Shown one piece after another: positions 2,336 through 33,693 of a stretch of DNA of 64,000 nucleotides. Both the position numbers and the translations under genes were made by a program. Position 1 is the stretch's first letter. Each line of letters starts with the position of its first letter. The notes under the pieces were generated by a model. The model made no database searches and was not told where the DNA came from. It saw only the letters and a list, made by a program, of their open reading frames with translations. Source of the DNA: Glycomyces tenuis DSM 44171 (lineage in GTDB: Bacteria > Actinomycetota > Actinomycetes > Mycobacteriales > Micromonosporaceae); the NCBI RefSeq assembly GCF_000427885.1, contig NZ_ATYW01000021.1:11824-75823 (forward strand), written 5' to 3'.

Positions 2336-3388
2336 TCACTCCGGCAGCCGGATCGTGGCGAGGACCGGCGCGTGGTCGCTGCCGTCCTTCTCGAGCACCT
2401 CGAAGTCGCTCACGGCGATCCGCTCGTCGACCAGCACGTGGTCGAGCGTCACCGCGGGCGGGCGCACGAACCCGCCCAGGTAGCCGCCCTCGATCGGGCG
2501 CCACGTCGCGGCCAGGCCCTCCCCGGTCGTCTCGGCGGCGTCGGTGTAGCCCCACTCGACGGCCTCGCGCAGCAGCCGGTGGTCGAGCGTCGCGTTGAAA
2601 TCGCCCGCCAGGACCCACGGCACGTCCCCGACCGGCCGCGGGAGCTGCGCGAAGTCGGCCTCCCACTGCGGGATCCGCTCGGGCCGCGCCGGCGCGGCGG
2701 TGTGCACGGCCATGAAGCGCGCCTTCGAGCCGTCGGGCAGGGTCGCCTCGGCGGCGATCTGGTAGAAGATCCCGTCCGGCTCGGAGGACTCGAGCCGCTC
2801 GAGCGGGTGGAGCGAGTACAGGCCGGTCCCGACGGCCAGCTCGGCGGGCTCGGCGATGACGTGCGGCATCCGCTCCTCGAGCCCCAGGTCGGCCAGCTCC
2901 TCATAGGCGCCCGGCGTGAGCTCCTGGATGCTGAGCAGATCCGGCTCGTAGCGGTCGACCAGCTCGACGATGTACTCCAGGTTCGCCGTGCCCACATAGG
3001 CGTTGACCGACAGGACGCGCAGCTCGGCGCCCTCGGCCACGGGCTGCTCGTCGGGGAGCGCGCGAGGGGCGATCACGGCCGCCATGGCCAGGGCGGCCGC
3101 GACGGTGACGATCGCGGCCCGCCAGTGCCGCAGCGCCGCCTGGATCCCCGCGCCGATCAGCGCCGCGCCCGCGACGTACGGGACGAACGCGATCGTCGTG
3201 ACCAGGATCCACCCCGTCTCGAGGCCGAACAGGCGGATCAGCGCGTAGACCCACACCGCGGCCGTCGCCGCCCATGAGCACCACCGGAGGGCGCGGCTGC
3301 GGTACCACGGGGTCCGCGCCGCTTTCACCTGCGGCGCTTCGGCTTCGTCGAGTCGCACCGACGCGTCGTCGGTCTGGGGGTCGCTCAT
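2336..3388 (-). CDS. Membrane-anchored endonuclease/exonuclease/phosphatase family protein
   Basis: The 350-residue protein has an N-terminal acidic tail, three hydrophobic segments in roughly the first 120 residues, then an extracytoplasmic endonuclease/exonuclease/phosphatase fold. The fold is recognised by LRVLSVNAYVG, DLLSIQEL (metal-binding Glu), the AVHTAAP block, VLAGDFNATLDH and the final DGSDHAPVLATI, which together supply the conserved Asn, Glu, Asp and His residues. Proteins of this build are usually called vancomycin-resistance-associated VanJ-like or EEP membrane phosphatases; the substrate is unknown. The ATG at 3388 begins MSDPQTDD; upstream frame lacks family sequence. Confidence 0.8.
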   Translation of the reverse strand: MSDPQTDDASVRLDEAEAPQVKAARTPWYRSRALRWCSWAATAAVWVYALIRLFGLETGWILVTTIAFVPYVAGAALIGAGIQAALRHWRAAIVTVAAALAMAAVIAPRALPDEQPVAEGAELRVLSVNAYVGTANLEYIVELVDRYEPDLLSIQELTPGAYEELADLGLEERMPHVIAEPAELAVGTGLYSLHPLERLESSEPDGIFYQIAAEATLPDGSKARFMAVHTAAPARPERIPQWEADFAQLPRPVGDVPWVLAGDFNATLDHRLLREAVEWGYTDAAETTGEGLAATWRPIEGGYLGGFVRPPAVTLDHVLVDERIAVSDFEVLEKDGSDHAPVLATIRLPE

Positions 3389-4348: not shown

Positions 4349-5350
4349 TCAGCTACAGGAGACCGACGGCCAGTTCCAGTTGCCGTTGTGCCGGATGGTG
4401 ACGCCGAAGGTGTTGCCGTTGCCGTTGGGCGTGGCGATCATCTGGGTGGCGGTGGGCCAGGTGGGGCTGCAGTTCCAGGTGGCGATGATCCTGGCGGGGT
4501 CCGGGACGTTCATGACCACCCTCCAGTCGCTCTTGCCGGAGACGGAGCAGCTGAGGTTGTAGCGGTCGCTCCACTGCTGCCCGCCGGACAGCGTGACGCT
4601 GCAGTTGCCGCCCGGGTCCGGATCGGGGTCCGGGTCCGGGTCCGGGTTCCCGCCACCGGAGCCGACCGTGATGTTGGAACTGCCGCTGCTCTGGTAGCCC
4701 TCGGTCGCCATGATCATGTAGTAGCTGAAGCTGCCGAGGTTCATGCCGGCGCGCGCCCAGGCGTCGAAGTGCTCGCCGGTGTTGATGGTGCCGGAGCTGC
4801 GGTGGTTCTGGCGGACGCTCCAGTACTGCTGGAAGGTCCTGGTGCCCTCCACGGACGGGGCGTTGGTGCGCGTCGACTCGCCAAGCCAGTAGCTGCCGCT
4901 GCTGGTGTTGAGCGTGCCGCGGCTCTGGGCGCCGCTGCTGGGGTTGTACGGGCCGTGGGATTCGACGATGTAGTACTCCACCAGCGGGTTGGAGGTCCAG
5001 CCGTACAGGGCCAGGTAGCCATTGCTGCCGTGGTTGACGTTGCCGCTGTAGGTGACGGTGCGGCGTCCGCCGTTGGCCCAGCCCTTGCCGCCGACCCAGT
5101 TGTTGGTGCCGTTCCACTGGGAGCTGTAGTTCCCGCCGGGGCCCAGGGTCATGGACACCGAGCCTTGCGTGTCGGTCCAGAACGAGTAGTAGTAGCCGTC
5201 GTGCGTGCCCTCTTGGTTGGTGGTGATGACCTGCTGAGCCTGGGCGGTGCCGGGGAGCATCATCCCCGTGGCGCCGAGCGCGAGGGCCGCGGAGCCTCCG
5301 AGCAGGACGCTCCTGCGGCTGAACGGGCCGCCGCGTGCGTCGTTGTCCAT
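4349..5350 (-). CDS. Secreted GH11 endo-1,4-beta-xylanase with CBM2-type C-terminal domain
   Basis: The 333-residue precursor is a family 11 xylanase. It opens with a twin-arginine signal ([10 protein letters not shown], cleavage after AQA), so it should be exported folded by Tat. The jelly-roll catalytic domain carries nucleophile Glu in [10 protein letters not shown] near residue 125 and acid/base Glu in [10 protein letters not shown] near 217. A Gly/Ser and Pro-Asp repeat linker follows, then a roughly 95-residue cellulose/xylan-binding domain with paired Cys and exposed Trp ([11 protein letters not shown] to NWNWPSVSC), as in CBM2. AGGAGG precedes the ATG at 5350. It should work with the wall-anchored GH10 xylanase encoded near 38 kb. 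Confidence 0.93.
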
Positions 5351-5740
5351 GGACGTCTTCCTCCTTGTGAAGGCCGGCGGGGAGCCGGCCGGCGCGGTGC
5401 GGCCCGGCGGCGGCCGGGGCGTGGCCGCCGCGCGTCGTCGCCGCGTGACGCAGTGGTTCTCATCTGGTCGCCGTGAGGGCGACGACCGACCGGGCCGCAG
5501 CAGCGACTCGGATCGACAAATGTCTATGTCTATCGATGGGACCAGTATGGAGTGGAGGTGAGGGCATGTCAATAATTTCCGGAACATTTTCGAGAATAGT
5601 TCACTCGATTTGGGAGTGACGATGCGCATATAACGCCTGTATATGGACATTATTCGAACAGTAGGCATCGTTTGATATGTATATTATGTCCTATAAATAC
5701 GAACTGTCTAATTTGTGTTATGTCGAAACTTCCGAAAGAA
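5351..5740 (-). promoter_or_regulatory. Long upstream region of the GH11 xylanase with candidate promoter and operator
   Basis: No gene is apparent here. The first 210 bases are GC-rich, whereas 5560-5740 is markedly AT-rich for this genome. On the minus strand a candidate promoter has TTAGAC at 5711-5706, a 17 nt spacer and CATAAT at 5688-5683, which implies a leader of about 320 nt. Just upstream lies CGAAACTTCCGAAAG (5724-5738), which resembles the GAAAGTTTC/GAAACTTTC elements before the GH10 xylanase gene. A common xylan-responsive repressor is possible. A nearer promoter may have been missed. Confidence 0.4.
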
Positions 5741-27025: not shown

Positions 27026-27315
27026 TCAGTCGAAGACCTCGTCGATGCCGGAGGCGTTCGCCGCGCGCGCGAACCAGCGGTCGACCGTGTCCGAGTCGGT
27101 GCAGCCCTCGATCCGCGCCCGAGTCTCGGCGGGCACCTCGATGCCGCGAAGGTCGAGCAGCTTCAAAAGAGACCTGATCTCGCCGCGCCTCTCGCCGCGC
27201 AGCTCGAGCTGACCGGCCGGGCTCTCGAGGTACTCCTGGTATGTCAAGCTCATGTAAGCCTCCAGTACATTGCGTGCTTCGTTCGAAAGAAGTCGCCATT
27301 CGTCTTCGGGCGGTG
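27026..27315 (-). pseudogene. C-terminal remnant of an Rpn/PD-(D/E)XK-like protein
   Basis: The frame encodes LSNEARNVLEAYMSLTYQEYL and then RGERRGEIRSLLKLLDLRG, ending DRWFARAANASGIDEVF. This matches the C-terminal tail of the actinobacterial family of Rpn-like or transposase-associated nuclease proteins, in which a G-E-R/A-G-E helix is followed by a 'LLxxLxxRGI' segment and a 'CTDxDxxDxWxxRA' motif. The N-terminal nuclease part is missing and the frame abuts the end of the EcfS gene. An ATG at 27253 could still make a 75-residue peptide. I treat it as a degraded gene. Confidence 0.6.
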
Positions 27316-28119
27316 TCAGTTCCACTGCGCCCGGCGGGCCGTCCTTCGCATGAGCCGCAGCAGGATCGGCCCGGTCAAGGCGATCAGCAGCGCCGTCGTC
27401 ACCGCCCGCCCCAGGTCCCAGCCCAGCGAGGTCGCCAGCGAATAGGCCAGGAGCCGCGAGAGGTTCTCGCCGAGCCCGCCGCCCGGGACGTACGCGAGGC
27501 TCCCCTGCGTGATCGCGAACGGCCAGAACGACATGTTCAGCAGCAGCCCGAACGCGAGCGACGCGACCACGGCATAGGACGCCAGCATCGCCAGCTCCGC
27601 GAACCGCCCGCGCCGCGTCCGCGGCGCCGCCGCGCCCGGCCCCGGCAGCAGCCCCGCCCCCAATCCGACGAAGGCCGCCGCGAACATCTGGTACGGCATC
27701 CACGGCCCCACGCCGCCGGTCAGCAGCGCCGAGGCGAACAGGCCCGTGTTGCCCAGGACGAAACCGAAGCCAGGCCCGAACACCCTGCCCGCCAGGATGA
27801 TCAGGAAGAACACCGTCTCCACCCCGGCCGCTCCGGCTCCGAACGGGCGCACCGCAGCCACCACCGCCGACAGGACCCCGAGCATCGCCACCGCCCGCGC
27901 GTCCATGCCGCCCTCCGACAGCTGCACCAGCACCACGGCCGTCACCACCGGCAGCAGCAGCGCGAACAGCCATGGGCCCGAAGTGGACTCGGTCAAGGCC
28001 CCGCCGGGGGCGGCCAGCAGCGGCCAGGCCGTCGCCACCAGCCCGAACGCCGCCGCGAGCGCCACCGCCGCCGCGCCCCGCCGACGGACGGCCGGGCGCG
28101 GGCTACGCAGGTCCGCCAT
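27316..28119 (-). CDS. ECF transporter S component (predicted cobalamin-type)
   Basis: The 267-residue membrane protein has about six helices and matches the actinobacterial ECF substrate-binding family typified by GMDARAVAMLGVLSAVVAAV, RPFGAGAAGVETVFFLIIL, GRVFGPGFGFVLGNTGLFAS and GGVGPWMPYQMFAAAFVG. It should capture the vitamin and release it on EcfT-driven toppling. Substrate is inferred as cobalamin from the riboswitch at the operon head and the transcobalamin-like surface proteins. The ATG at 28119 overlaps the 3' end of the EcfA gene by 17 nt, showing coupling. It is last in the operon. Confidence 0.85.
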   Translation of the reverse strand: MADLRSPRPAVRRRGAAAVALAAAFGLVATAWPLLAAPGGALTESTSGPWLFALLLPVVTAVVLVQLSEGGMDARAVAMLGVLSAVVAAVRPFGAGAAGVETVFFLIILAGRVFGPGFGFVLGNTGLFASALLTGGVGPWMPYQMFAAAFVGLGAGLLPGPGAAAPRTRRGRFAELAMLASYAVVASLAFGLLLNMSFWPFAITQGSLAYVPGGGLGENLSRLLAYSLATSLGWDLGRAVTTALLIALTGPILLRLMRRTARRAQWN

Positions 28120-29707
28120 CGGACGCGTCCAGAGCCGCCGCCACCTCGGCCACCGTCAGCCGGCCCGGCAGGATCTTCTCCACCTGCGGCGCGAACATCG
28201 GCGAGGCCGCCACGATCGACCGCGCCGGGCCGTCGGCCACCACCTGCCCGTCCGAGAGGATCACCACCCGCCCGGCGAACTCCGCAGTGAACTCCACGTC
28301 ATGGGTCGAGACGACGACGCAGTGCCCGGCATCGGCGAGCCTGCGGAGCCTGGCCGCCAGCGCGGCCTTCCCCGGGTAGTCCAGGCCCCTGGTCGGCTCG
28401 TCCAAGAGCAGCAGCGGCGGCGCGGCCGTGAGCGTCACCGCCAGGGCCAGCGCGAGCCGCTGGCCCTCCGAGAGGTCCCTCGGATGCGCCTCGGCGTCGA
28501 CGCCGTCGACCAGGTCCGCCAGGATCTTCGCGCAGGCCCCGGCCGGGGCGTCCCCGTCGCGGTCCGCGGCCTCGCATTCGCCCGCCACCGTCTCGGCGTA
28601 GAGCAGATCGGCCGGTTCGGCGGGCACCAGGCCCGCCAGGGTCCGCCGCCGCCCCGGCTTCAGCGCGGCCGGGTCGCCGCCCTCGATCGACACCGTCCCC
28701 GCCGAGCGCTTCCCGGTGCCCTGCAAGGCCCACAGCAGGCTCGACTTCCCCGAACCGTTGCGGCCCATGAGCGCGATCCGCTCGCCGCGCCTCGACACGA
28801 GGTCGACGCCGTCGACGGCGCGCACGCCCGGGTAGTCGACCGCCACCCCGGCGGCCTCCAGCAGCGGCGGGCCCGCGGGCGGCGGCTCGACCGGCGCGGG
28901 CGCCGACGCCAGCCGCTCGCGCAGCGGCGCCGCCTGCCGCCGGGCGGCCCTGATCGTCACCGGCGGCCCCTCCCAGCCGGCGAGCTCGCCGAGCCGGACC
29001 ACCGGCGGGGCCACCGGGGCGCCCGCCAGCACCTCGCCGAGCGACCCCGCCCGCACGCGGCCGCCTTGCAGCAGCAGCGCCGAGTCGGCGTACTGCACCA
29101 CCCGCTCCAAGCGGTGCTCGGCGAGCAGGACGGTCACGCCGAGGTCGTGGACGAGGCGGTGCAGCGCCGAGAGCACCTCGTCGGCCGCGCCCGGATCGAG
29201 CGCCGACGTCGGCTCGTCCAGCACCAGCGCCGAAGGGCCCGCCACGAGCGCCGCGCCGATCGCCACGCGCTGCCGCTGGCCCGACGACAGGGCGGCCAGG
29301 GCCCGGCCCCGCACGTCCGCCAAGCCGAGCAGGTCCACGATCTCGGTGACGCGTTTGCGCATCGCGTCCCGCGGCACGCCCAGCTGCTCGGCGGTGTAGG
29401 CCAGTTCGAGTTCCACGTCGTCGGTCACGAAGCCCGCCAAGGGGTCCTGGGCGACATAGCCGACCACGTCGGCCAGGTCCGCCGGGGTCGATGCACGCAC
29501 GCTCCTGCCCGCCACGGTGATCGCGCCGCTCATCGTCCCGCCGGTGAAGTGCGGCACCAGGCCGTTGACGCACCGCAGCAGTGTGGACTTGCCCGCGCCG
29601 GTGGTGCCGACCAGCAGGCAGAACTCGCCTTCGGGGACGTCGAAGCCCACGTCGTCGAGGACCGCGCGGTCCTCGTAGCGGAAGGTCACTCGGTCGAAGT
29701 GGATCAT
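28103..29707 (-). CDS. Fused EcfA-EcfA' ATPase
   Basis: The 534-residue protein contains two complete ABC ATPase domains, so one chain replaces the usual EcfA1/EcfA2 heterodimer. Domain 1 has Walker A GTTGAGKSTLL, signature LSSGQRQRVAIG, Walker B ALVLDEPTSALD and switch His in LLAEHRLE. Domain 2 (from about residue 290) has GRNGSGKSSLL, LSEGQRLALALAV, LLLLDEPTRGLD and STHD. It powers the EcfT/EcfS complex at the cytosolic face. Its ATG overlaps the EcfT stop (ATGA). Confidence 0.93.
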   Translation of the reverse strand: MIHFDRVTFRYEDRAVLDDVGFDVPEGEFCLLVGTTGAGKSTLLRCVNGLVPHFTGGTMSGAITVAGRSVRASTPADLADVVGYVAQDPLAGFVTDDVELELAYTAEQLGVPRDAMRKRVTEIVDLLGLADVRGRALAALSSGQRQRVAIGAALVAGPSALVLDEPTSALDPGAADEVLSALHRLVHDLGVTVLLAEHRLERVVQYADSALLLQGGRVRAGSLGEVLAGAPVAPPVVRLGELAGWEGPPVTIRAARRQAAPLRERLASAPAPVEPPPAGPPLLEAAGVAVDYPGVRAVDGVDLVSRRGERIALMGRNGSGKSSLLWALQGTGKRSAGTVSIEGGDPAALKPGRRRTLAGLVPAEPADLLYAETVAGECEAADRDGDAPAGACAKILADLVDGVDAEAHPRDLSEGQRLALALAVTLTAAPPLLLLDEPTRGLDYPGKAALAARLRRLADAGHCVVVSTHDVEFTAEFAGRVVILSDGQVVADGPARSIVAASPMFAPQVEKILPGRLTVAEVAAALDASDGGPA

Positions 29708-30804
29708 CGTGGTCCCGTCTTCGTGGAGGAGGTGGGTGCCAGCAGCGCCGGGGCGGCGGCGAGGAGGACGCCGCAGGCGGCGTACAGCGGCAGCGGCGGC
29801 ACGGCGAGCGTCGCCTGCGGCCAGAGCGTTCCCGGCTCGGCGACGCCGCTGAGCACGGTGCCCGCCACGGCGGCCCCGCCCGAGAGCAGGATCGCCCAGT
29901 CGCGGGCGCCGAAGGCGTCGGTCCGGTAGCGGGTGTGCGGGACGCGCCTGGAGGCGAACGCGATCCCGAAGACCGCCGCGCCCGCGCCCGCCGCCAGGAG
30001 CGACCACGCCGCGGGCGCCGGGGTGGCCGTCCCGAGCAGGGCGTACGCCCCGGCGCACAGGCCGAGCAGCCCGGTGAGCAGGAACGCGGAGGTGACCCGG
30101 CGCGCCCCGGCCGGGACGCCCGCCGCCCGGCCGTAGCCGCGCGAGGCCATCGCCGCCGCGAGCGCCAGTGACCGGTCCAGCGCGTCGTGCAGGACCGGGA
30201 CGACGACGGTGCGCATCAGGTTCGCCGGGCTGCGGCCCGTGTCGCCGCGCAGCGCCCTGGCTCTGCGGATCCGCGCCACGCCCGAGACGAGCTGCGGCGC
30301 CACCGACAGCGCGACCACCACCGCGACGCTCACCTCGTACAGCGCGGCCGGGACCGAGCGCAGCAGCCGCCTGGGGCTCGCGAGCGCGTTGGCCGCACCA
30401 ACGCACACCAGCAGCGTCGCCAGCCGCAGCCCGTCCCAGGCCGCCGCCAGAGCGCCCTCGGCGGAGACCGCGCCGCCGAGGCGGAACCCGGCGGCCCACT
30501 CCGGCAGCCGCACCGACGGGAGCTCGAACAGGACGGTCGCGCCCTCGGCGCCGCCGAAGACGACGTAGAACATCATGCGCACCGCGATCGCCGTCGCGCC
30601 GATCAGCAGGAACACTCGATACGCGCCCGACCACGGCTCGTCGCCCCTGCACCACACGACGACGAGCCCGGAGACGGCGACGACGAGCAGCAGCAGCCAC
30701 GGGTTCGCGGTGCGGCTGGCGGCGGTGGCGAGGAGCAGCGCCCAGCCCCACCAGGCCACGGGGTGCGCGCCGCGCCGGGCGGCGCGGCCGGGGACGGTGT
30801 TCAC
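29704..30804 (-). CDS. ECF transporter transmembrane component EcfT
   Basis: The 366-residue protein is the scaffold subunit: hydrophobic N-terminus, then coupling-helix motifs in the cytosolic domain, VARIRRARALRGDTG (the Ala-Arg-Gly-type motif) and AMASRGYGR, which contact the ATPases. The C-terminal extra four hydrophobic segments make it longer than a minimal EcfT (about 260 residues). The GTG at 30804 overlaps the stop of the upstream DUF4430-like gene (GTGA). With the fused EcfA and EcfS it forms a complete dedicated (group I-like) ECF importer. Confidence 0.9.
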   Translation of the reverse strand: MNTVPGRAARRGAHPVAWWGWALLLATAASRTANPWLLLLVVAVSGLVVVWCRGDEPWSGAYRVFLLIGATAIAVRMMFYVVFGGAEGATVLFELPSVRLPEWAAGFRLGGAVSAEGALAAAWDGLRLATLLVCVGAANALASPRRLLRSVPAALYEVSVAVVVALSVAPQLVSGVARIRRARALRGDTGRSPANLMRTVVVPVLHDALDRSLALAAAMASRGYGRAAGVPAGARRVTSAFLLTGLLGLCAGAYALLGTATPAPAAWSLLAAGAGAAVFGIAFASRRVPHTRYRTDAFGARDWAILLSGGAAVAGTVLSGVAEPGTLWPQATLAVPPLPLYAACGVLLAAAPALLAPTSSTKTGPR

Positions 30805-31409
30805 GCGCGTCGGTCGCGCCGCAGCCGCCAGACGACGAGCCCGGCGATCACGGCGAGGGCCAGGGCCGCGAGCACCCACGTCAGCGACCCGCCGCCTTCA
30901 GTGCCCGCCGCGTCGTCGGCGGCGGCCTCCCCGCCGTCGTCGGCCGCGCCCGAGGCCTCGCCCGGGGTGAGGCTCGGCGGGGCCGAGCCGTCGCCGAACA
31001 CCCAGCCCTCGACGTCGCCGTCGTCCGGGTCGCGCGTCATGGCCCCGCCGCTGGCGTACACCCATTCGCCTTCGGCGTCGGCGTACCAGTACGACCAGGA
31101 CGCGTCGGCCGGGGGCATCGGGCCGCAGTCGGCCTCGGGGTAGTCGTCGATCCGGCACACCGCGCCGGGGAAGGAGCTCACCTCCGCGACCGCGAACCCG
31201 GCCTGCGTGAGCGCCTCGATCCCGTCGGCCGGGTCGGCGGCGCAGCCGACGGCCGCCTCGCCCCGCCCGGAGTCGACCACGACCGTCACTCCCTCGCAGC
31301 CGCCGTCCTGGGCTCCGGCCGTCGAAGCCCACGCCGGTGCGGCGACGGCGGCGAGCACCGCCGCCGCACCGACGCGAGCGAGCCGGTCCCGCAGGGGTGC
31401 GCGGGTCAT
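30801..31409 (-). CDS. Secreted, membrane-anchored transcobalamin beta-domain-like (DUF4430-type) protein
   Basis: The 202-residue precursor has a signal peptide (cleaved near AGAQD), a compact domain of about 110 residues and a C-terminal anchor helix (LTWVLAALALAVIAGLVVW) with RLRRDRR. The domain reads VTVVVDSGRGE, GIEALTQAGFAV, AVCRIDDYPEADC, WSYWYADAEGEWVYASGG and VEGWVFGDG. This order of a short sheet, disulfide and Trp/Tyr-rich strand resembles DUF4430, the fold shared with the C-terminal domain of eukaryotic transcobalamin. It overlaps its neighbours on both sides by 4 nt. I infer it caps or hands over cobalamin at the membrane surface. Confidence 0.75.
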   Translation of the reverse strand: MTRAPLRDRLARVGAAAVLAAVAAPAWASTAGAQDGGCEGVTVVVDSGRGEAAVGCAADPADGIEALTQAGFAVAEVSSFPGAVCRIDDYPEADCGPMPPADASWSYWYADAEGEWVYASGGAMTRDPDDGDVEGWVFGDGSAPPSLTPGEASGAADDGGEAAADDAAGTEGGGSLTWVLAALALAVIAGLVVWRLRRDRRA

Positions 31410-32653
31410 TCGCGATCCTTGCCCTCGGCGGACTCGACCCCGGCGCCCCGCCCGCCGCGGCGGGCGCGGACGATCACGAACGCGACGATCGCGAGCAGCA
31501 CGAGCGCGGCGCCGACGATCACCCACGGCAGCCACGCGTTCGCGCCGTCGTCCTCGTCCGAGGCCGCGTCGCCGGCGTCGCCGGTGCCCGCGTCCTCGGC
31601 GGACTCGCATTCGACGGCCGGGACGTCGCGGGCCTGGTCGGAGGCGTCGAGCTCGGCGAGGTTCTGGGCCGACAGCGGGACGAGCGCCTGAGCGGTCGCG
31701 AGCAGGCGCGAGGACTCGCCGAACTCGGGGTCCTCGGGGTCGGAGAAGCGGATCGCTCCCTCGCCGTCCTCGCCGCAGCCGATCTGGAGTCCGATGAGAT
31801 AGGTCACGGACAGCTCCGCGGCATCGGCGGTGTCCTCGGACGTCAGCAGCGCCTGCGCGGCCAGCGCCGTCGAGTTCGCGTTCGCGCCGAAGCCGCCGTC
31901 GAAGGAGCCGTCCTCGCCCTGCTGGTCTTGGAGCCACTGGAGCGCGGTCCCGCGCGCCTCGGCCCCGTCCTCGCCGATGGCGGTCAGCGCCGAGACGGCG
32001 AGACCGGTCGTGTCGGGGTCGCTGGCGCAGTCGCCGCCTTCGGGCACGGAGAAGGAGAAGCCGCCGTCGGAGCACTGGGCGGCCAGGAGCGCGGCGGCGA
32101 CCTCCTCGCTCACGCCCTCCTCGGTGCGCGAGAGGCCGAGCGCGGCCCACGACAGCGTGCCGCCGTCCAGGCCCTCGGTCGGCGCGGCGGTGACCTCCTC
32201 GGCGAGCTTGACGCCGCCGAAGTCCGAGGGGTCGCCGCCCGCGGTGGCGACGACGTACATGACCTTGCCGGCCGCGCCGAGCGCGATCGGGGCGTCCTCC
32301 TCGCCCTCACCGGAGTAGACATAGGAGCTCAGCACGTCCGGCTCGTTGATCCATTCGAGGGAGGCCTGCACCTGGTCGCCGCCGACCTGGGCGGCCATGA
32401 GCCCGATGAGCGAGTCGAGGGTCGCTCCGACGTCCGGAGCGCCGTTGAATTCGAAGTGGTCGCCACTGGCCTGGGCGGCGAGCCAGGAGGCGGCGGCCCC
32501 GGAGGGATCGGAGTACGGCGCGTCCTGGGCGTGGGCCGCGGAGGCCGGAGCGAGGGCGGCGACGGGCAGGACCACGGCGGCCGCTGCGCCGAGCAGGGCA
32601 TGGCGAAGCTTGCGGGCCGTGAATCGGCGCGGCCGTGTCGACAGGTGGCGCAT
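31406..32653 (-). CDS. Secreted, membrane-anchored alpha/alpha-repeat protein (intrinsic factor alpha-domain/prenyltransferase-like)
   Basis: The 415-residue precursor has a signal peptide (cleavage after AAHAQ), a domain of about 300 residues built of helical-hairpin repeats, an acidic linker and a C-terminal membrane helix (WLPWVIVGAALVLLAIVAFVIV) followed by RARRGGRG. Repeats are marked by AASWLAAQ, AALLAAQCSDGGFSF, DPDTTGLAVSALTAIG, LQWLQDQQGEDGSF and ANSTALAAQALL, the pattern of squalene-cyclase/prenyltransferase barrels and of the alpha domain of intrinsic factor and transcobalamin. No DxDD cyclase motif is present. First gene after the riboswitch; its end overlaps the beta-like gene (ATGA). 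Confidence 0.78.
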   Translation of the reverse strand: MRHLSTRPRRFTARKLRHALLGAAAAVVLPVAALAPASAAHAQDAPYSDPSGAAASWLAAQASGDHFEFNGAPDVGATLDSLIGLMAAQVGGDQVQASLEWINEPDVLSSYVYSGEGEEDAPIALGAAGKVMYVVATAGGDPSDFGGVKLAEEVTAAPTEGLDGGTLSWAALGLSRTEEGVSEEVAAALLAAQCSDGGFSFSVPEGGDCASDPDTTGLAVSALTAIGEDGAEARGTALQWLQDQQGEDGSFDGGFGANANSTALAAQALLTSEDTADAAELSVTYLIGLQIGCGEDGEGAIRFSDPEDPEFGESSRLLATAQALVPLSAQNLAELDASDQARDVPAVECESAEDAGTGDAGDAASDEDDGANAWLPWVIVGAALVLLAIVAFVIVRARRGGRGAGVESAEGKDRE

Positions 32654-32708
32654 TGCCTGACCTTTCTGAAGCGCGGGCGAGGTCTTCGGCAGGCGGCGAC
32701 GCCGCAAG

Positions 32709-32730
32709 CGCCTGTAGACCACGACAGGCG
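32709..32730 (-). promoter_or_regulatory. Hairpin between riboswitch and first gene (possible expression platform)
   Basis: CGCCTGT and ACAGGCG pair around an 8 nt loop, about 55 nt before the start codon of the first operon gene. Together with a second possible stem (CCGAGC near 32808 with GCTCGG near 32785) it could form the alternative structures by which the cobalamin aptamer controls expression. The mechanism is not provable by eye. Confidence 0.35.
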
Positions 32731-32799
32731 TTGACAATGAAAATGGCGGCCGGTGGGCATTCGGGCTCACGCGGGTGGACCGAGCTGAAGAAAGAGGTT

Positions 32800-32900
32800 G
32801 CTCGCTCGGCTGGTGTTCGGAATCGAACCGCGACTACCGCTGCGGGTCAGCGCCGGCTTCCGACCGGACTTCCCCCACAGGACGCCTGTTGAGTTTGGCT
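32800..32900 (-). ncRNA. Cobalamin riboswitch
   Basis: On the minus strand the leader contains, in order, GGGAAGTCCGGT (32874-32863), a CCGG/CCGG hairpin, GCTGACCCGCAGCGGT (32851-32836) and ATTCCGAACACCAGCC (32823-32808). These correspond to the conserved aptamer core (GGGAA...CCGG...CCCGCAnCnGT) and to the 3' B12 box consensus AGYCMGGAGACCTGCC (12 of 16). The promoter just upstream places the transcription start at the 5' edge. It controls the five-gene operon ending at 27316, identifying its substrate as a cobalamin. Exact ends and sub-class need a covariance search. Confidence 0.85.
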
Positions 32901-32902
32901 TC

Positions 32903-32932
32903 ATTCTGTCCGTCGGTGCTACGGGGTGTCAA
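32903..32932 (-). promoter_or_regulatory. Promoter of the cobalamin riboswitch operon
   Basis: TTGACA at 32932-32927, an 18 nt spacer and CAGAAT at 32908-32903 form a good sigma-70-like promoter on the minus strand. The predicted start at about 32896 coincides with the beginning of the riboswitch. Confidence 0.6.
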
Positions 32933-32997
32933 GGCGGTGGTGCTGTGAGTGGAGCCCTTCACTGCGTCCCGAGAGGCGGGCGCCCGCTCACAGGTCA

Positions 32998-33025
32998 TTG
33001 ACCCGTAGCGCCGGGTGTCGATACC
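32998..33025 (+). promoter_or_regulatory. Putative leaderless promoter of the TetR gene
   Basis: TTGACC at 32998-33003, 16 nt spacer and GATACC at 33020-33025 end 8 nt before the GTG start of the regulator gene, which lacks a Shine-Dalgarno sequence. Transcription would start at or near the GTG. Confidence 0.4.
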
Positions 33026-33033
33026 GTGCAGAC

Positions 33034-33693
33034 GTGAGCAGAAATAAAAATGCCGATTTGGACAGAGTTCTCCGCGCCGCCACCAGGGCTTTTCTGGAAC
33101 GCGGATTCGCTGCGACCTCCATGTCGGACCTAGTGGCGGCCACGGGCATGAACCGGGCCGGCCTGTACTCGGCCTTCGGTTCGAAGCATCAGCTCTACAT
33201 CACCGCGCTCGCCCGCTACCGCGAGGACACCGAGCCGGAGATGCGGGCGATCGCCCGCCGCGCCCTGGATCGGCCTCCCCCTGAACGCCTGGACGCCCCG
33301 CGGGTCGTCGGCGACATCCTCGAAGTGGTGGCCAGGCACAGCAAGGAGGGCGGCTTCGTCGTGCGCGCGGCCGTCGAACTGGCCGACGACCCGGCCACCA
33401 TGCGGCGCGTGCAGGAGGCCTGGTCCGAGCTCGAACGCGACCTGGCGGCGATCCTGGCGCGCGCGAGCGACACCGGGGAGATGGCCGATCAGATCGACCC
33501 GGCCCGGCTGGCGAGGACGCTGCTGGTGTTCATCCAGGGCGCGTTCGTCGTCGGGCACGCCGACGAGGACGACGGGCGCCTCGACGACGCCGCGGCCGGC
33601 CTGGTCGCGCTCCTCGACCGTCATAGACCCTCGGCCACCGCCGAACCGATACGAAGCCAAGCCCCCAACGACGCCTTACTCAGCGAGTCATAG
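33034..33693 (+). CDS. TetR family transcriptional regulator
   Basis: The 219-residue protein has a TetR-type helix-turn-helix at residues about 8-55 (ATRAFLERGFAATSMSDLVAATGMNRAGLYSAFGSK region) and a helical ligand-binding domain resembling the TetR_C_16/AcrR-like group with FIQGAFVVGHAD. Ligand and targets are unknown. It is divergent from the cobalamin operon, though that operon already has a riboswitch, so a regulatory link is not implied. Its last 73 bases overlap the 3' end of the convergent ParA-like gene. Confidence 0.9.
   Translation: MSRNKNADLDRVLRAATRAFLERGFAATSMSDLVAATGMNRAGLYSAFGSKHQLYITALARYREDTEPEMRAIARRALDRPPPERLDAPRVVGDILEVVARHSKEGGFVVRAAVELADDPATMRRVQEAWSELERDLAAILARASDTGEMADQIDPARLARTLLVFIQGAFVVGHADEDDGRLDDAAAGLVALLDRHRPSATAEPIRSQAPNDALLSES

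Follow-up and report, generated by a model that had tools for sequence, protein, structure and literature searches.

A five-gene operon of the actinomycete Glycomyces tenuis DSM 44171 probably encodes a riboswitch-controlled system for the uptake of intact cobamides (B12), in which two separately tethered surface proteins would clamp the ligand and hand it to the substrate-specific component (EcfS) of an energy-coupling factor (ECF) importer. The operon lies on the minus strand of the window, i.e. the whole 64,000-nucleotide stretch that was analyzed (contig NZ_ATYW01000021.1, positions 11,824 to 75,823), and positions below are those of the window unless a relative's locus is named. This judgment, which rests on sequence comparison, concerns the reading as a whole; riboswitch-controlled cobamide uptake taken by itself is held with greater confidence, and clamping by two separate halves taken by itself with less. 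The elements of the locus, in order of transcription, are:

32903-32932 (-): sigma-70-like promoter, TTGACA-N18-CAGAAT, with 10 of 12 consensus matches
32735-32925 (-): cobalamin riboswitch (RF00174, covariance match), with conserved core and B12 box at 32756-32874
32709-32730 (-): hairpin CGCCTGT...ACAGGCG behind the aptamer, with conserved pairing, the probable expression platform
32651-32694 (-): GCCTGCC element (32694-32688) and the CAGGC stretch that it can pair with, which adjoins the ribosome site and start codon
31406-32653 (-): P0001, secreted alpha/alpha-toroid protein (predicted toroid domain 31631-32503) with a C-terminal membrane segment
30801-31409 (-): P0002, secreted beta-domain protein (domain 30987-31295, a probable remote relative of DUF4430) with a C-terminal membrane segment
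29704-30804 (-): P0003, EcfT, CbiQ family (PF02361)
28103-29707 (-): P0004, fused EcfA-EcfA ATPase
27316-28119 (-): P0005, probable EcfS substrate-specific component of the PF12822 type

The layout of the locus bears out a preliminary description of this DNA, which had proposed a sigma-70-like promoter, a cobalamin-riboswitch leader and five overlapping genes, two of them encoding secreted, tethered proteins. The promoter at 32932-32903 was found once against a mean of 0.1 in shuffled sequences, and a similar one precedes 13 of the 14 Glycomyces-type leaders (the window counted), with the hexamers kept and the spacer varying; the sole exception, in which no such promoter was found, is the leader of locus L016. 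A covariance search returned RF00174 at 34.1 bits (gathering cut-off 31.5) as the sole Rfam gathering match in the window. The riboswitch core and B12 box show no mismatch in the strict core scan described below, and invariant columns are seen in them across 13 leaders. The Rfam match shares its 5' end (the 5' strand of outer helix P1) with the predicted promoter, and this helix holds several non-standard pairs; the aptamer is therefore probably compact, with no canonical P1. The five genes overlap successively by 4, 4, 4 and 17 nt, and P0001 and P0002 each have just two hydrophobic segments, one at the N-terminus and one at the C-terminus.

The sequence between aptamer and start codon is consistent with control of translation. 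All seven pairs of the hairpin can form in 14/14 leaders, G-T pairs included; in two of them (L005 and L016) one side of the hairpin is altered and pairing is still possible. The GCCTGCC and CAGGC elements are likewise both present in all 14 Glycomyces-type leaders. A terminator scan of the leader found no terminator-like site, so that translational control is favored over termination, and the riboswitch likely acts through a switch that sequesters the start site. When B12 is short, the ribosome site would be free and the operon made; when it is plentiful, B12 would bind the leader RNA, and a hairpin switch would let the GCCTGCC element cover the ribosome site.

Comparison with related loci supports the cobalamin control of the operon that was initially proposed, in addition to the window's own RF00174 match. 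Relatives of P0005 are encoded in 395 stretches of the genome collection, of which the best 80 loci were kept, and domains in these were called with profiles derived from the domains found in the window. A first, loose riboswitch motif scan was dropped for its excess of chance matches and replaced by a strict scan for the core together with the B12 box, with reversed sequences as controls. This gave 93 matches in 83 sequences (1.2 Mb) and none in the reversed controls; the 83 sequences are the window itself and 82 loci, two of them derived from the genome to which the window belongs, such that the window's core is counted twice. A core was accepted if no more than 900 nt separated it from the first domain of a surface protein downstream or, in loci without such a domain, from the ECF genes. 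By this measure, 53 of the 80 loci have a core upstream, seven are without one and 20 were set aside for having less than 700 nt of upstream sequence; any core upstream of the S gene is found in 55. Rfam models, run on 18 of the 80 loci, gave upstream gathering matches in 11 (ten RF00174 and one RF01689). The core is present in loci of Glycomyces, Streptomyces, Kitasatospora, Micromonosporaceae, Actinotalea and Phycicoccus, and in Dietzia and Corynebacterium loci from metagenome-assembled genomes (MAGs), though same-genus relatives are not independent and many loci are from Streptomyces. The gene set recurs as well: toroid and beta domain types both lie upstream of an S gene with T and A-A genes in 57/80 loci, the beta type only in seven, and neither type in 16, of which 12 are ended by the contig end.

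All parts of an ECF importer, with P0005 as the probable S component, can be recognized downstream of the two surface-protein genes, in agreement with the preliminary description. P0003 belongs to the CbiQ/EcfT family (PF02361; 31.5 bits, cut-off 25). P0004 contains two ABC_tran stretches (Pfam) and exceeds the cut-off of the cbiO model TIGR01166 (215.9 against 211.8 bits), and its best NCBIfam models are ECF ATPases, matched below their cut-offs (248.6 against 315). P0005 has six hydrophobic segments, which together with its position in the operon fit an S component. Its sole Pfam match at E ≤ 1 is to PF12822 and falls under the cut-off (23.2 against 30.7 bits); within its family, 22 of 27 members match PF12822 at E ≤ 0.01, the best at 3.2e-9. 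Among named S proteins, that of Glycomyces arizonensis is nearest (91%). P0005 does not group with any of the named vitamin families; of the named NCBIfam models the folate family comes closest, far below the cut-off (20 against 60; 18 of the 27 family members match this model at E ≤ 0.001). At loci L070, L071 and L081, the best aligned piece of the A-A protein spans about half of that protein, and the ATPases there may be separate or diverged.

It is unlikely that the ECF part imports B12 alone, in the manner of ECF-CbrT, with the tethered proteins serving elsewhere in B12 metabolism, for example by catching B12-protein complexes. Such a division of labor would accord with ECF-CbrT, where the S component sets substrate specificity (passages of PMC5997447), and with four adequately upstream-covered loci (L019, L047, L079 and L081) that have no toroid or beta gene beside the ECF genes, though L019 has toroid/beta pairs elsewhere on the locus. 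Against it, the toroid and beta genes of the window come first and overlap each other and the ECF genes, and the same two types stand upstream of the S gene in the 57 loci counted above.

The gene content of the host points to B12 as the cargo. The assembly is rated 100% complete, and searches for CobN, CbiC and CobS found no match in it; the same searches were positive in 5, 7 and 10 of 14 control genomes, respectively. The host has a Cob_adeno_trans (adenosyltransferase) gene (205.6 bits), a methylmalonyl-CoA mutase B12 domain over the cut-off, and MetH-like and lysine 5,6-aminomutase-like B12 domains (scanned as domain pieces), and its only other RF00174 match precedes metE. Because the three synthesis markers are unmatched, but the adenosyltransferase, B12 domains and a riboswitch-led metE are present, the host seems to use B12 yet to be unable to make it; the absence of marker matches alongside B12-using genes likewise makes import of a whole cobamide the best reading, and strengthens the role in B12 uptake first proposed for the operon. 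The further proposal that no Btu-type binding protein is involved stands for the operon, where P0001, P0002, P0003 and P0005 contain no Peripla_BP_2 domain, but does not extend to the genome, which encodes three Peripla_BP_2 (PF01497) proteins, none over the BtuF cut-off. The first is closest to an F420-0 model and gives a weak BtuF match (38.9 bits against 234, from a 250-residue piece), the second is closest to FhuD and the third has no match at E ≤ 1e-5. A BtuFCD-like route elsewhere in the host genome is possible.

An unlikely alternative is that the cargo is cobalt or a precursor of B12 (such as a lower-ligand base or a late corrinoid), the riboswitch merely reporting B12 status as it does for cobalt transporters. 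In its favor, the T and A subunits belong to the CbiQ/CbiO type, and cobalt transport genes of Streptomyces lividans also stand behind a cobalamin riboswitch (a passage of PMC8079986). However, the host without CobN, CbiC or CobS matches has no visible use for cobalt or a lower ligand, a Pfam search of P0005 gave no CbiM match at E ≤ 1, and two exported proteins resembling a ligand clamp fit a big ligand. Cobalt uptake is set aside because none of these synthesis genes was found.

The first surface protein, P0001, is by its family profile an alpha/alpha toroid. This profile matches cyclase toroids in the PDB at 5.5e-47, and the family matches the toroids of squalene-hopene cyclase and prenyltransferase. 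P0001 alone gives Pfam toroid matches below the cut-offs; two of six relatives pass a Pfam toroid cut-off (40.7 and 48.6 bits) and two others have no Pfam match at E ≤ 0.1. The toroid class first suggested for P0001 is thereby upheld, and a direct comparison with PF01122 came out negative, with no match at E ≤ 1 for P0001 or P0002. It is very improbable that P0001 is a terpene-cyclase-like or TED-like surface enzyme with a merely regulatory link to B12: squalene-hopene cyclase, prenyltransferase and TED/complement are the toroid's best Pfam and PDB matches, but P0001 scores below cut-off and has export and anchor segments, and toroids recur fused to or paired with beta or DUF4430-like domains behind cobalamin riboswitches. 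Eight loci (L030, L052, L063, L070, L071, L075, L078 and L082) show the toroid-profile match in swapped order, the C-terminal part first, resembling a circular permutation.

The domain of P0002 is probably a remote relative of DUF4430. Its family has three invariant cysteines and three invariant tryptophans. The DUF4430 assignment in the preliminary description has no more than indirect support: no DUF4430 or transcobalamin match came from direct Pfam, NCBIfam or PDB searches with P0002 or its family, and a statistical link emerges in profile-profile comparison alone. With 22 Pfam-positive DUF4430 domains (20 from phylum-level relatives and two from the same class), this comparison aligned 67 columns with a score of 28.6 (P 1e-4, HH probability 58%); the best of 300 column shuffles reached 19.2, with none as high as the true score, and the reversed profile 8.5. 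In control comparisons of the beta profile, P was 0.72 against the S-component profile and 0.55 against the toroid profile. A separate profile-profile tool, applied with 20 DUF4430 domains, gave P 3e-4 and a probability of 40%. Other Pfam matches are a weak one of P0002 to FeoB_associated (E 0.77) and one to Cupin_3 (E 0.08) in one of 75 relatives. A class-wide search with the beta profile was positive at E ≤ 0.001 in 82 of 148 genomes; 37 of the matches cover more than 80 of the 110 positions and 45 are shorter, mostly confined to the tryptophan-rich C-terminal part, so a wider family of such domains exists in Actinomycetes. Within the same order, one family with nine genomes was without any beta-profile match.

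The proposed route of uptake is as follows. P0001 (the toroid half) and P0002 (the beta half) would be exported and held side by side at the outer face of the membrane by their C-terminal helices, where they may jointly clamp B12 in the way that transcobalamin does with its two domains. P0005 would receive B12 from this clamp, and the T/A-A module would drive its import.

Fusions in related genomes corroborate the pairing of the two domain types, which the preliminary description had put forward. In Streptomyces, the first gene commonly encodes a beta-toroid-toroid arrangement in one chain and the next a second beta domain; the C-terminal hydrophobic segment of the fusion is under threshold in S. 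roseus and over it in S. bikiniensis. In locus L114, a row of beta, T, A-A and S genes is followed by a toroid gene and then by a DUF4430 gene that passes the Pfam cut-off (33.4 bits against 23.8); no riboswitch core was seen in the approximately 0.3 kb of upstream sequence of this locus. Small, secreted-looking proteins of the DUF4430 type are encoded in two Streptomyces-like genomes, in L113 at 4995-5714 (-), over the Pfam cut-off and with a cobalamin riboswitch core at the 5' end of the gene, and in L091 at 2550-3215 (-), as detected with our own DUF4430 profile.

A second riboswitch core, pointing away from the operon, lies within 400 nt in 26 loci. Five of the 26 divergent units were examined (L091, L092, L115, L116 and L117), and all five encode a protein alike over approximately 450-470 residues, with at least 650 bits to that of S. 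griseus. None of the five has a C-terminal hydrophobic segment; the N-terminal segment was checked in two. The toroid profile matches four of the five. The C-terminal part of the S. griseus and S. roseus proteins scores 15.8-15.9 bits against PF14478, below the cut-off of 23.8, the proteins of L115 and L116 have no PF14478 match at E ≤ 0.05, and with our own DUF4430 profile four of the five give weak matches, at E 0.0079 to 0.44. Neither the DUF4430 protein of L114 nor the unanchored protein of S. griseus gave a useful match when searched against the PDB. In Catellatospora (L055, 482-2094 (-)), the divergent pair consists of separate toroid and beta chains behind a cobalamin riboswitch core, both without a C-terminal anchor. 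Toroid and beta genes also follow a cobalamin riboswitch core in L117 (2418-4112 (-)), their chains without a C-terminal membrane segment, and further such genes stand behind cobalamin riboswitch cores on the minus strands of L019 and L074.

Because the transcobalamin domain order occurs unanchored in bacteria that also have tethered versions, these loci suggest a diffusible carrier that hands B12 to a tethered receiver. A tentative extension, which we consider possible but doubtful, is a two-stage actinomycete system: riboswitch-controlled secreted carriers, in one chain or split, would scavenge B12 in the manner of hemophores and pass it on to toroid/beta receivers tethered to membrane or wall and to the ECF pump. 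In this scheme the window would represent the simplest version, in which everything is tethered and each half of the clamp has its own anchor.

Two reading frames flank the operon. A TetR-family regulator gene (32926-33693 (+)) diverges from it, its true start probably lying inside the listed frame, and a frame of approximately 75 residues without a Pfam match (27026-27253 (-)) lies directly downstream of the S gene.

Several results weigh against clamp-mediated uptake of B12. Transcobalamin is absent from the best 60 of the 84 PDB matches of the toroid profile, which are mostly cyclases, prenyltransferases and complement proteins. For the second surface protein, PF14478 is matched by none of 75 beta-domain relatives (Pfam, E ≤ 0.1), the HH probabilities of the DUF4430 link are only the 58% and 40% given above, and P0002 scores 30.6 bits against SCO2322_fam (NF040672), below the curated cut-off of 85. 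The weak PDB matches bear unrelated names, namely designed 'Bagel' proteins for the beta-domain profile (E 0.00039 over 32 positions) and a metallo-beta-lactamase for P0002 (E 0.0047). The DUF4430 profile itself finds a putative metal-binding protein best (E 0.026) and transcobalamin-1 and transcobalamin-2 at 0.16 and 0.85, all of them weak. A PDB search with the P0005 family profile returns none of the ECF chains at E ≤ 5, and hence provides no tie to CbrT. Seven loci are without a riboswitch core despite enough upstream sequence, though in one of these, L017 (Lentzea flava), an AdoCbl-II riboswitch (RF01689) at 2408-2479 (+) leads the operon instead of RF00174. Finally, the argument from auxotrophy covers the window's genome alone. 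Streptomyces relatives may well make B12 themselves, with the system there serving as a salvage route; passages of PMC8079986 report a riboswitch-led cobD-cobQ-cobN in S. lividans, and a table of RNA-seq-validated riboswitches there gives two cobalamin riboswitches, neither at such an operon.

Membrane proteins for B12 uptake are unidentified in most B12-requiring prokaryotes, according to the abstract of PMC6072759. If the proposed reading is correct, many actinomycetes (Glycomyces, Streptomyces, Kitasatospora, Lentzea, several Micromonosporaceae, and the Dietzia and Corynebacterium MAG loci) would use a transcobalamin-like clamp with a dedicated ECF pump, and proteins that so far bear only the names SCO2322 family or prenyltransferase-like would gain a function. 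A regulated, testable system would likewise become available for the proposed bacterial forebears of animal B12 carriers. The riboswitch makes the hypothesis directly accessible to reporter assay.

The core idea of the preliminary description is not new, as B12 scavenging was already proposed for secreted SLBB/toroid proteins of other bacteria, encoded in CbiO/CbiQ operons (Burroughs et al. 2007, PMC1796856). Those systems, as presented in passages of that paper, resemble the present one in their secreted or anchored toroid and beta-grasp domains, often with a second SLBB paralogue, in operons with a CbiO-like ATPase and a CbiQ-like protein, and in hosts that usually lack key enzymes of B12 synthesis. 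Toroid-SLBB fusion is common among them, and the clade is widespread in low-GC Gram-positives and planctomycetes and less frequent in euryarchaea; the word riboswitch does not occur in the main text of the paper. In contrast, the system of the window occurs in Actinomycetes, its halves are split and separately anchored, its beta domain has no PF14478 match, and its operon includes an S component and a riboswitch. An actinobacterial, riboswitch-linked form was not found described in titles, abstracts and passages of open-licence papers, which is weak evidence of absence. What is new here thus appears to be the split, anchored actinobacterial form, the riboswitch linkage and the possible diffusible carriers, the general kind having been predicted before, apparently without test.

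Animal transcobalamin, intrinsic factor and haptocorrin share with the window's proteins the toroid and, probably, the beta-grasp domain types (domain facts from passages of PMC1796856), and the N-to-C domain order of transcobalamin is common to the unanchored Streptomyces proteins P0014 and P0015. Unlike the animal family, the window's proteins are separate, membrane-tethered chains and have no significant direct sequence match to it. The nearest functionally tested systems found are ECF-CbrT and BtuG. ECF-CbrT of Lactobacillus delbrueckii (passages of PMC5997447) is likewise an ECF importer, with B12 the presumed substrate of the window's system too, whereas the latter has a dedicated fused A-A and T, two surface proteins and an S-component family whose profile matches no ECF chain in the PDB. 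BtuFCD, described in passages of the same paper, also takes up B12 at the expense of ATP, but the window's operon has no BtuF-type gene. BtuG of gut Bacteroides (passages of PMC6143338) resembles the proposed clamp in capturing B12 at the surface, on a tether, ahead of the transporter; unlike the window's system, it associates with BtuB in a Gram-negative setting.

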